Shown here: piece by piece, positions 19,309 through 22,737 of the stretch
How the letters are laid out: every line of letters begins with the position of its first letter
Numbering within the stretch: the first letter of the stretch is position 1
Assembly: GCF_014207745.1 (NCBI RefSeq)
Contig: NZ_JACHJB010000001.1
Coordinates: forward strand, 2,480,001-2,544,000
Source of the DNA: Nonomuraea muscovyensis
GTDB taxonomy: Bacteria > Actinomycetota > Actinomycetes > Streptosporangiales > Streptosporangiaceae
Direction: 5' to 3'
Length of the DNA: 64,000 nucleotides
The notes under the pieces: generated by a model
What the model was told of the DNA's origin: nothing
The model's database searches: none
The model's input: the letters and a program-made list of their open reading frames with translations, nothing else
Position numbers and translations under genes: made by a program

Positions 19309-20259
19309 TCAGAGGCCGAGGAACTGGTGGCAGTGGTGCGCGAGGAACGAGCTGAGACCGGGCAGCAGCGCCACCGTGGCCGGTCCCGCCAGCAGCAGCC
19401 CGACAGCGAACGACCCGGCCAGACGCTGCCTGCGGCCGAGGGGGGTCGCCGGGTTGAGCAGGCGCCGTACGCGGGCCAGCGCGCTCTCGCCGCCGGCACC
19501 CAGGGCGAAGGCCGGAGCACGGCCGGTGGCCAGCCCCACCAAGGCGGTCGCGATGAGGACGCGGGGGTGACGGCGGGCAGCCACATCGTCGGCGAGCAGC
19601 TCGATGAGCCGGGCGAGCTCCTCCCGGGCCTGCTCGAACAGCGGAACGCCGGGGAACGCCCTGACCAGGGTTTCGGCTCCGGCGAGGACGAGGTGGTGTC
19701 GTCCGCGCAGATGCGCCTGCTCGTGGGCGAGTACGGCGGCGACCTGCTCCAGGCTGAGGCTGCGCAGGGCGCCCGTGGTGATGACGGCCTTGCCGTGCCT
19801 GCCGGGAAGGCAGTAGGCCAGCCGCTCGTCGTAGTCGACGACGATCGCGTCCAGCCGGCCGTCGTGCCTGCCCAGCAGCGCCAGTGTCTCCGCATGACGG
19901 CGCCGCTCCGCACGGGCGCGCGAAAGCACCGCCACCGCGCAGTGGACGACCCGCGCCACCACGGCGCCCGCCACGGCGAGGGCGACTCCGGTGGTCGCCG
20001 CGGTCATGCCCGGGCCGTGCGCGAGCAGAGCGGCGCACGCCGCGAAGAACGCGGCCAGACCGTGGCCGACCACTGAAGCGGGCACCGCAAGCGCGAAGGC
20101 CGCCAGCAGGATGGAGACGACCACGGAGCCGCACGCCGCCTGCCACAGTGCGATCGCCAGGCGGGGCGCCCGCTCGGCCCATCCCGCCCGGCCCAGCAGC
20201 CGGGGCAGCACGATCGCCGCGATGACCGGGTAGGCCACCAGCACGGCCGCCGCCGTCAT
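19309..20259 (-). CDS. M56-family membrane zinc metalloprotease (BlaR1-type, no sensor domain)
   Basis: 316 aa with three or four N-terminal membrane helices, the zinc motif HEQAH (H179, E180, H183) and the third-ligand region IELLADD (220-224), then another helix near the C-terminus. M56 proteases of this type cleave or inactivate a partner BlaI repressor on sensing an outside signal. There is no penicillin-binding sensor domain, so beta-lactam sensing is not supported. The start overlaps the stop of blaI by 4 bp (ATGA). Signal unknown; neighbours suggest metal or envelope stress. Confidence 0.88.
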   Translation of the reverse strand: MTAAAVLVAYPVIAAIVLPRLLGRAGWAERAPRLAIALWQAACGSVVVSILLAAFALAVPASVVGHGLAAFFAACAALLAHGPGMTAATTGVALAVAGAVVARVVHCAVAVLSRARAERRRHAETLALLGRHDGRLDAIVVDYDERLAYCLPGRHGKAVITTGALRSLSLEQVAAVLAHEQAHLRGRHHLVLAGAETLVRAFPGVPLFEQAREELARLIELLADDVAARRHPRVLIATALVGLATGRAPAFALGAGGESALARVRRLLNPATPLGRRQRLAGSFAVGLLLAGPATVALLPGLSSFLAHHCHQFLGL

Positions 20260-20627
20260 GCGCGCCCCTTCGGCGGGAACACCTGCAGCGCCGCCTCCAG
20301 GGCGCTCGCCTCCTCAGGTGTCAGCCGCTCCAGGAAGTGCACCAGGGTGGCGGCCTGGTTGCCGCTCCTGGCGAGGGACTCTCGCATCAGGTCGGCGGTG
20401 TAGGCCTCCTTGGAGGAGATCGCCTGGTAGATGTAGGCCTTGCCGACGAGCTCTCGCTTGAGCATGCCCTTGGTGTGGAGCTTGTCCATCACGGTCATCA
20501 CGGTCGTGTAGGCGATCTCGCGCTCCCGGCGCAGGTCCTCCAGCACCTCACGCACCGAGGCAGGCCGGCGGTAGGACCACATGCGGTCCATGATGGCCGA
20601 CTCCAACTCGCCCAGACGGCGCGCCAT
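20256..20627 (-). CDS. BlaI/MecI-family repressor
   Basis: 123 aa from ATG 20625-20627; upstream in-frame sequence is antisense to other DNA and is rejected. The winged helix covers residues 1-75 (ASVREVLEDL, AYTTVMTVMDKLHTKGML). The C-terminal helices form the dimer region that the M56 partner would cut. It is coupled to the M56 gene. A CTAC-N8-GTAG palindrome lies 35 bp upstream (20663-20678), and another lies at the divergent DUF6153 promoter (20801-20816), so it likely represses both. Confidence 0.9.
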   Translation of the reverse strand: MARRLGELESAIMDRMWSYRRPASVREVLEDLRREREIAYTTVMTVMDKLHTKGMLKRELVGKAYIYQAISSKEAYTADLMRESLARSGNQAATLVHFLERLTPEEASALEAALQVFPPKGRA

Positions 20628-20662
20628 GCGAACCCCTTCCCACCGGGCAGGTCGCTCCCATG

Positions 20663-20678
20663 CTACCGGCCATCGTAG
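20663..20678. promoter_or_regulatory. BlaI-like operator, blaI promoter
   Basis: CTAC-N8-GTAG, the same 16-bp architecture as 20801-20816. Actinobacterial BlaI sites use TAC/GTA half-sites of this kind. Binding is inferred. Confidence 0.6.
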
Positions 20679-20700
20679 GCAGGCACCGGTTCGCGTAACC

Positions 20701-20717
20701 GGTTGTGCTGTACAACC
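20701..20717. promoter_or_regulatory. Inverted repeat shared in part with the marR promoter
   Basis: GGTTGT-N5-ACAACC. The right side continues into GTACAACCATTT, which is also present before marR (19167-19178). It may be a MarR site or a promoter element linking the two operons. Confidence 0.4.
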
Positions 20718-20800
20718 ATTTGGCCGCCACGGGGACCGCGTGGCGCGGTGGAGCACGGCACGCCGATCTGCCGCAGATGCCGTGCCCGTGCCGCACAGGC

Positions 20801-20816
20801 CTACTATCGTGAGTAG
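20801..20816. promoter_or_regulatory. BlaI-like operator, DUF6153-DUF305 promoter
   Basis: CTAC-N8-GTAG inside a perfect CCTACT-N6-AGTAGG repeat (20800-20817), 29 bp before the DUF6153 start. Confidence 0.6.
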
Positions 20817-20845
20817 GGACAGGTCGGCATCTGCACGGGGAACGG

Positions 20846-21262
20846 ATGGACGAACACGTAGTAGACCGATGCCGCCGCCTCTCGCGGTGGGTCCTTCTGG
20901 TCCTGCTCGTCGTCGGCGTCTCCGGCATGCACACCCTCGGACACGCCGACCTCTCTCACGGGCACGGCGAGGCGGCGGTGGCGTCGATGCCCATGGGACA
21001 GACGCCACATCCGGGAATGGGCGGCGCTGTCTCCTCAGGCGCCGCCTCCTCAAGTGGAGAGTTGCCCGAGCTCGATCCCGGCACCGTGTGTTCGGCAGTG
21101 CTCACCTCGCTGCTTCTGCTCTTCCTGGGAGCGCGGCGTGGGCGCCTGCTCGGGCGAAGGAGGATGCCGCCCGCAGCGGTGTCGGACACGGGACCGGCGG
21201 GCAGGCCGCCCCCCGGGTCTCTTGCGCTGAATCTCACTCGTGTGTCGGTGCTCCGCATATAG
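20846..21262 (+). CDS. DUF6153-type small membrane protein
   Basis: 138 aa. A first hydrophobic helix (about 13-30) is followed by a His/Met-rich outside segment (HTLGHADLSHGHG, SMPMG) and a second helix (about 81-98). A basic tail ends LTRVSVLRI, the ending typical of this family. The DUF305 lipoprotein gene follows after 64 bp, so the two are probably one operon under the BlaI-like operator. The His and Met residues suggest metal binding at the outer face (inference). Confidence 0.75.
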   Translation: MDEHVVDRCRRLSRWVLLVLLVVGVSGMHTLGHADLSHGHGEAAVASMPMGQTPHPGMGGAVSSGAASSSGELPELDPGTVCSAVLTSLLLLFLGARRGRLLGRRRMPPAAVSDTGPAGRPPPGSLALNLTRVSVLRI

Positions 21263-21326
21263 GCCGATCGGTCTCGCGACCCACGGCCATGCACCCATCC
21301 ATCGACACAGCAGGAGTCACTCGACC

Positions 21327-21968
21327 ATGTTCACCAACCGATCGATCGTCCAGAGGATCATGTCCGCGGCGGCGGCCGGAGCCGGCGCGCTCGTCCTGCT
21401 CACCGCCTGCGGTGGCGGCGGCGACAGCACGACGTCCGGCCACGCCATGCCCACGACCGGCGGAGCGGCCGCCACGCCCACCGGCACGCAGCCGGAAGCC
21501 TCGTTCAACGACGCGGACGTGATGTTCGCGCAGATGATGATCCCGCACCACCAGCAGGCCGTCGAGATGGCCGAGCTGGCCGAGAGCCGCGCCTCCGACC
21601 CCGAGGTCACGGAACTGGCCGCGAAGATCAAGGCCGCCCAGGACCCGGAGATCAGGACCATGCAGGGCTGGCTCAAGGAATGGGGCAAGCCCGTGCCCGC
21701 GGACACGGACGGCACGCACGGCATGGATCACGGCATGCCCGGGATGATGTCCGGCGAGGACATGAAGATGCTGGAGGAGGCCAAGGGCGCCACCTTCGAC
21801 AAGCGTTTCACGCAGATGATGATCGCCCACCACAAGGGGGCGATCGAGATGGCCAGGACCGAGCAGGCGGAGGGCGTCAACGCCGAGGCCAAGGAACTGG
21901 CCAAGACCATCGAGTCGGCCCAGCAGGACGAGATCGAGCAGATGCAGAAGATCCTCGACCGGCTCTGA
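21327..21968 (+). CDS. DUF305 lipoprotein
   Basis: 213 aa. The signal peptide ends in lipobox LTAC (C28), so it is anchored outside the membrane. Two DUF305 repeats follow, each with a Met/His motif: MMIPHHQQAVEMA (H74, H75) and MMIAHHKGAIEMA (H168, H169). A Met/His-rich link (HGMDHGMPGMM) joins them. The ATG at 21327 has AGGAG upstream; an earlier in-frame start at 21240 lacks a signal peptide and overlaps the previous gene. A ferritin-like helical fold binding copper or another metal is plausible but unproven. Confidence 0.9.
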   Translation: MFTNRSIVQRIMSAAAAGAGALVLLTACGGGGDSTTSGHAMPTTGGAAATPTGTQPEASFNDADVMFAQMMIPHHQQAVEMAELAESRASDPEVTELAAKIKAAQDPEIRTMQGWLKEWGKPVPADTDGTHGMDHGMPGMMSGEDMKMLEEAKGATFDKRFTQMMIAHHKGAIEMARTEQAEGVNAEAKELAKTIESAQQDEIEQMQKILDRL

Positions 21969-22275
21969 CGCCACCCGCCGGGCGCCCCGCCGGGGGCGCC
22001 CGGCGTCTCGCTTCTGGCCTACTCGTAGGCATCGCATCTACGACGAATGACAGTAGGCAATGAACCGTGGCCGGCACCTTCGTCCTCCGAACCCAGCCAT
22101 CGCGCCGGGGACGGGAGCCGCTGGGAGAGTCCTGGTGCTACGCCCTGTAGGAGGTACGGCCGCCACGCAGCACCGGAAGCTGTTACGGATGAGATGTCGG
22201 TGAATGCTGGGCATTTTGAGTAATCCTCGCCGCACCGGAGAAAGGTAAAGAAATCGCCCCTGAACTGCTGGTCAG
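21969..22275. other. Gene-free stretch before the CHAP fragment
   Basis: It holds the DUF305 terminator and a short CCTAC-TC-GTAGG repeat (22018-22029). The last 80 bp are less GC-rich (ATTTTGAGTAATCC, AAAGGTAAAGAAATC) and end where the truncated CHAP frame begins, so a rearrangement boundary may lie near 22200-22275. Confidence 0.5.
21977..22004 (+). terminator. Hairpin after the DUF305 gene
   Basis: Perfect 12-bp GC arms (21977-21988 and 21993-22004), 4-nt loop, starting 8 bp after the stop. Outer GACGCC/GGCGTC bases extend it. Confidence 0.8.
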
Positions 22276-22737
22276 ATGGGGTGCTCGATAGACGTCAAGG
22301 AGAACGCCGCAGGGGGCGGCACCCCGTTCCACAGCTGGTACATGTCCTCCCAGCGGGCCGCCGAGACCGTCACCCGTGACGGTGGCAACGTCCGCGCCTA
22401 CGCCAACGCGCCGTGGTGCGCGATGTTCGTCTCGTGGGTCGGCGAGAAGGCCGGCCTTCGCCAGACGGTCGGCTGGGACGCCTACACCGTCACCTGGGCC
22501 AAGTGGTTCAAGGCCAACAGGCGCTGGGGCTCCACGCCCAAGCCGGGCGCAGTCGTGTACTTCTCCTGGAACGGCGGAGGCATCGACAGCATCGACCACA
22601 TGGGCCTGGTCAAGAAGGACAACGGCGACGGCACGATCAGCACGATCGAAGGCAACACCGGCAACGGCAGGGTGGAGCAGCGTGTCCGACCCAAGTCGCA
22701 CGTCATCGGCTACGGCTACCCGGAGTACAAGGCCTGA
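22276..22737 (+). pseudogene. CHAP-domain peptidoglycan hydrolase, N-terminally truncated
   Basis: 153 aa from ATG, with an in-frame stop 15 bp upstream and no clear ribosome site. The body is a CHAP (NlpC/P60-like) amidase domain with the catalytic Cys in PWCAMFVSW and the His in IDHMGLV, and it ends shortly after the domain. Relatives normally have a signal peptide and some residues before KENAAGGGTPFH; here only about eight remain, so the protein cannot be exported by a normal route. It is probably a relic. The alternative is a cytosolic effector-like hydrolase; nothing nearby supports that. Confidence 0.6.

Follow-up and report, generated by a model that had tools for sequence, protein, structure and literature searches.

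BlaI-type repressors paired with BlaR1-type membrane proteases are already known to respond to copper, the precedent being PetRP of Synechocystis, in which, as outlined in the published descriptions, copper activates the BlaR1-type protease PetP and the BlaI-type regulator PetR is degraded (PMC7896320, PMC13421787). In Staphylococcus aureus, BlaI is cleaved between Asn101 and Phe102 (PMC9834060). Synechocystis also has CopM, a copper-induced, copper-binding protein with an HH motif (PMC4335983). Actinobacterial genomes hold many BlaI-M56 pairs that are named for penicillin resistance, few of which have a known signal, and our literature search found no earlier report of BlaI with DUF305, or of BlaI with copper in actinobacteria.

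We analysed one such pair in a 64,000-nucleotide genome stretch (hereafter the window) of Nonomuraea muscovyensis, an actinobacterium from soil. Based on sequence comparisons, we propose with a probability of about 0.7 that BlaI, its neighbouring protease and a divergent DUF6153-CopM operon form a copper-defence switch relieved by proteolysis, with copper sensed outside the cell. The features concerned are as follows.

19309..20259, minus strand: gene for a BlaR1-type membrane metalloprotease (M56-like), 316 aa (HEQAH, AlphaFold model, fold match)
20256..20627, minus strand: blaI, encoding a 123-aa winged-helix repressor (Penicillinase_R)
20663..20678, no strand: operator 1, CTAC-N8-GTAG, 35 bp before blaI, conserved in orthologs
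20801..20816, no strand: operator 2, CTAC-N8-GTAG, 29 bp before the DUF6153 gene, with DUF6153 sites in relatives too
20846..21262, plus strand: DUF6153 gene, 138 aa (PF19650 E 2.4e-5, sub-threshold; alignment of relatives)
21327..21968, plus strand: gene for a DUF305/CopM-family lipoprotein (PF03713 E 8e-54; NCBIfam CopM)
22019..22056, no strand: operator-like cluster CTACTCGTAG plus CTACGACGAATGACAGTAG, a possible third site (half-site count against shuffles)

The start of the protease gene overlaps the blaI stop, an intergenic region (20628-20845) separates blaI from the divergent DUF6153 gene, and the DUF305 gene is the second gene of the DUF6153 operon. A CHAP-domain open reading frame lies 3' of the DUF305 gene (22276-22737) and lacks the N-terminal part of its paralogs (157 aa compared with 235-250 aa); judged from sequence, it looks like a truncated gene copy with its 5' part missing. 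We considered it as a regulon member and left it out of the regulon count because its frame is 5'-truncated relative to the paralogs. The host genome has eight DUF305 genes, and positions 1-393 of the window are the C-terminal part of another one.

Profile matches assign the DUF305 protein to the CopM family of copper metallochaperones: it scored 113.3 bits against NCBIfam CopM NF049983 (cut-off 90), all 13 aligned DUF305 relatives matched the same model, and its best solved relatives are CopM structures. It is a predicted lipoprotein (lipobox LTAC) with two HH motifs invariant across 13 relatives. The DUF6153 protein is membrane-anchored and His/Met-rich, with an invariant Met-His and one Cys in aligned relatives; its score against PF19650 (25.6 bits) falls below the gathering cut-off of 27.7, although the L040 relative passes (30.3 bits), and the assignment is backed by operon context and relatives. 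The initial annotation described small His/Met-rich surface proteins of unknown function; for the DUF305 protein, the "unknown function" needs replacing.

We compared 29 ortholog BlaI loci (mostly 58-100% identical, one at 50%; closest named relatives Nonomuraea species, at 89% identity) with 89 control loci, comprising 20 BlaI paralog loci within the same bacterial family plus 69 loci of more distant BlaI. The orthologs came from two collections that may repeat some species, and counts from them are not fully independent. In the proposed survey of blaI-M56 pairs beside DUF305, DUF6153 or DUF305 was nearby in 17 of the 22 ortholog BlaI-M56 loci and in one of the 20 control BlaI-M56 loci (P 1.6e-6), and in none of the seven ortholog loci without a protease gene. 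Copper markers (multicopper oxidase, copper P-type ATPase or CsoR) were near 8/22 ortholog BlaI-M56 loci versus 0/20 M56 controls (P 0.004) and 0/89 of all controls. In the window and in L067-L069 the DUF6153 operon is divergent, whereas L035, L039 and L044 have it in convergent orientation and in L076 it lies downstream, on the same strand. Linkage that survives such changes of gene order speaks for function and against a shared segment frozen in place. Within 6 kb either side of the window locus, no copper ATPase, CsoR or multicopper oxidase was recognised, and we therefore infer copper from the relatives and from CopM. The earlier suggestion of a metal rather than a beta-lactam signal gains support from this repeated linkage to copper genes, which would sharpen it to copper.

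A class-wide survey of 20 DUF6153 loci found DUF305 close by in 18, and most DUF6153-DUF305 operons were without a linked BlaI. Three loci without a nearby BlaI had a copper ATPase (L221, L231 and L233), one of them also with CsoR; DUF305 was not found in L233. BlaI-M56, DUF6153-DUF305 and a copper ATPase were combined in two surveyed loci, L222 and L224. L222, from another family of the class (G270:C44:24000-40000), holds a multicopper oxidase, DUF6153, a copper ATPase, NlpC/P60, BlaI-M56 and DUF305 in one stretch, together with operator sites. Many Streptomyces (L078-L146) carry a BlaI that is 51-61% identical, but its neighbours include no recognised M56 gene.

The same circuit could instead be induced by envelope damage (peptidoglycan fragments or membrane stress), with the copper genes as passengers or as secondary to a wall-stress response. 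Good operator-like sites precede NlpC/P60 genes in most of nine ortholog loci, hydrolase-type genes were near 10/22 ortholog loci compared with 2/20 controls (P 0.017), and in the window a truncated CHAP gene lies 3' of DUF305. However, copper-specific genes recur in these same loci and in none of the controls, the DUF305 protein falls in CopM, and no wall-binding domain was recognisable in the protease, so that we consider envelope damage an unlikely inducer. With good operator-like sites before NlpC/P60 genes in several relatives, the signal may come from the wall, or wall remodelling may form part of a copper response.

The window contains just two copies of CTAC-N8-GTAG (0.05 expected; no shuffle reached two): CTACCGGCCATCGTAG at 20663-20678, 35 bp from the blaI ATG at 20627, and CTACTATCGTGAGTAG at 20801-20816, 29 bp from the DUF6153 ATG at 20846. 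The initial annotation located and spaced both sites correctly; its "identical 16-bp architecture" applies to the half-sites and their spacing, whereas the inner 8 bp differ. The 9.23-Mb host genome has 11 CTAC-N8-GTAG sites in total, so the pattern alone is too common to define a regulon. A genome-wide regulon in the host was rejected, the other nine sites resembling chance or coding sites on inspection; the longer palindrome CTACTA-N7-TAGTAG, which uses the same half-sites, is absent from the host genome even with one mismatch allowed, and the host regulon therefore appears local. No operator was found near the host's other DUF305 genes. A further cluster, overlooked in the initial annotation, places four CTAC/GTAG half-sites in 38 bp at 22019-22056, ahead of the CHAP open reading frame; it is the sole place in the window with four in 40 bp, a density reached in 0/40 shuffles.

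Among relatives, the relaxed pattern CTAY-N8-RTAG was present in the 300 bp upstream of blaI at 17/29 ortholog, 1/20 paralog and 1/69 distant loci (orthologs versus other BlaI, 17/29 and 2/89, P 5e-11). Fourteen related genomes (116 Mb) contain 12 copies of the 19-mer palindrome, 11 of them within 14 kb of a blaI ortholog; the binomial value for this (1.7e-26) treats sites as independent though neighbours are not, and should be read as very strong clustering only. When the best upstream site was scored against shuffled sequence (p<0.05), an operator-like site preceded DUF6153 in 15/16 cases compared with 2/15 for DUF305, the internal gene of the operon, and the exact relaxed pattern was upstream of DUF6153 in 7/16, of DUF305 in 0/15 and of protease genes in 0/26. 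Operator-like sites were also upstream of the copper ATPase in L042 and L075 and of the multicopper oxidase in L038, and in some relatives the operator stands before other secreted genes. Taken together, these comparisons strongly support predicted control by BlaI of both the blaI-protease operon and the divergent DUF6153-CopM operon, as had been claimed, given that relatives retain the operator upstream of blaI and of DUF6153.

It is improbable that the two sites are coincidental, with BlaI only autoregulating and the DUF6153 operon under another regulator. BlaI is absent from the vicinity of most DUF6153-DUF305 operons of the class, as that reading would have it, but chance would place two CTAC-N8-GTAG sites within 154 bp of each other about 0.002 times per genome, and sites before DUF6153 recur in relatives despite different gene orders (for example L044, L069, L075 and L076).

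Other operator contexts were seen in individual relatives. The large cluster of L159 (G010:C101:35000-48000) comprises DUF6153-multicopper oxidase, a BNR-type lipoprotein, a CHAP-like gene, DUF6153 and DUF305, and has two 19-mer operators, with a 19-mer upstream of the CHAP-like gene, followed by DUF6153 and DUF305. In L040 (8180-9664), two adjacent methyltransferase genes each have an operator-like site before them, and in L038 a methyltransferase lies beside a 19-mer. A sigma-70 promoter scan returned nothing at the operators of the window. On the blaI strand, operator 1 is directly followed by CAT, so that TAGCAT may be a -10 element; ortholog sites often read CTACGAnnnnCGGTAGCAT, and the operator therefore probably overlaps such an element, the conserved TAGCAT being the whole basis for this overlap.

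How the signal would reach BlaI depends on the protease, which has an HEQAH motif and four predicted membrane helices. As had been noted from the sequence, it has no beta-lactam sensor domain: there was no penicillin-binding Pfam match, and the chain terminates at its last membrane helix (residue 316). The M56 label is less straightforward, since Pfam assigns the protein to M48 and its PF05569 (M56) model missed it, but 6/13 relatives matched M56 and the predicted fold is nearest BlaR1. In the AlphaFold model (mean pLDDT 85.4), BlaR1 was the top Foldseek match (E 4.7e-3, probability 1.00) and the best in VIA-align (Z 11.8, rmsd 5.6, 219 residues aligned), with ZMPSTE24 and BepA, also HExxH proteases, slightly below. 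As modelled, the protease is a BlaR1-type fold minus the sensor domain.

A conserved GHGL...C loop and the C-terminal tail of the protease are predicted to lie outside the membrane, judging from BlaR1 homology and from positive residues in the loop that joins helices 1 and 2. In the window protein the tail reads HHCH, and most clade members have HHC with H, L, Y or N next, with variants in L033 (HYC) and in the outlying members L040 and L044 (RHCH or EHCH). Because the HHC(H) tail characterises the clade and HHC was present in 0/20 control proteases, it is a candidate copper site. The M56 proteins of two DUF305-linked loci (L042 and L046) are without it, so the tail cannot be essential for every such pair.

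BlaI itself matched Penicillinase_R well (E 8e-24, 84.6 bits, cut-off 22.6), and its nearest solved structure is 2g9w, M. tuberculosis BlaI Rv1846c. It contains no cysteine, and hence no CXC motif, and scored 32.8 bits against the CopY model TIGR02698, which places it outside CopY/TcrY at a cut-off of 121.95; self-sensing of metal is therefore unlikely. Phe98 is invariant and aligns with the Phe of the MecI LNF site (MecI letters matched to 1okr), which is the position of the P1' residue in the known BlaI/MecI cleavage site.

These properties leave very little room for two further readings. A CopY-type repressor that senses metal directly, with the protease incidental, would be in keeping with the shared superfamily (the weak TIGR02698 match), but the score is far under the CopY cut-off (122 bits), cysteine-free BlaI has no CXC motif (PMC7253601), the operator differs from TACANNTGTA, and DUF6153/DUF305 linkage is confined to ortholog loci with M56 (17/22 versus 0/7 without). 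A classical beta-lactam-sensing BlaI/BlaR1 system, suggested by the family names and the BlaR1 fold, is equally remote with a 316-aa protease that stops at its last membrane helix without a penicillin-binding domain and with metal proteins as conserved neighbours.

With self-sensing of metal unlikely and Phe98 matching the cleavage site, a copper-activated protease that cuts BlaI is the simplest reading. In the proposed copper switch, a BlaI dimer would occupy CTAC-N8-GTAG at either end of the intergenic region, repressing the blaI-protease and DUF6153-CopM operons. Metal, most likely copper (Cu(I), possibly Ag(I)), would bind the GHGL/Cys loop and the HHC(H) tail outside the membrane and thereby activate the cytoplasmic HExxH site. 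The protease may then cut BlaI at Phe98, equivalent to N101-F102 of S. aureus BlaI, releasing both promoters, and the surface CopM-type lipoprotein and the DUF6153 protein would, from what is known of their families, bind copper outside the membrane. We put at about even odds the more specific proposal that a protease without a sensor domain reads extracytoplasmic copper through the HHC(H) tail and the Cys/His loop, cuts BlaI and induces a surface copper-defence operon, with wall hydrolases in some lineages, separately from cytoplasmic CsoR-type sensing.

With its conserved operator, its defined target operon encoding a copper metallochaperone and its candidate site for metal, the locus lends itself to a direct test of the signal. 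If true, the proposal would place DUF6153 in a functional context for the first time, show proteolytic copper sensing in actinobacteria as well as cyanobacteria and caution against reading BlaI-M56 genes as antibiotic resistance.

Several described systems are close to the window locus. Rv1846c (2g9w) is the closest solved repressor, but its targets, as far as the published account reports them, include blaC and Rv1303, which sits by the ATP synthase genes, not CopM (PMC12565901). CopY/TcrY share the repressor superfamily and a copper response (here predicted), but CopY itself binds copper by CXC motifs, whereas the window BlaI is cysteine-free and paired with a protease (PMC7253601). Synechocystis CopM is likewise an exported DUF305 copper-binding protein with conserved HH motifs; it is under the CopRS two-component system, whereas the protein here is a predicted lipoprotein, putatively under BlaI (PMC4335983). 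Staphylococcus BlaI/BlaR1 and MecI/MecR1 share the repressor fold, the membrane HExxH protease fold, the self-repressed divergent arrangement and the Phe at the cleavage position (PMC9834060), but the window system has no penicillin-binding sensor domain, has copper-type targets, and has CTAC-N8-GTAG in place of the TACA/TGTA of Staphylococcus BlaI/MecI. PetRP, as known here from its published description, likewise has a BlaI-type regulator gene adjoining a BlaR1-type membrane protease gene; it is described as switching plastocyanin and cytochrome c6 in cyanobacteria, whereas in actinobacteria the predicted targets are DUF6153-CopM at the window locus and further copper and wall genes in relatives.
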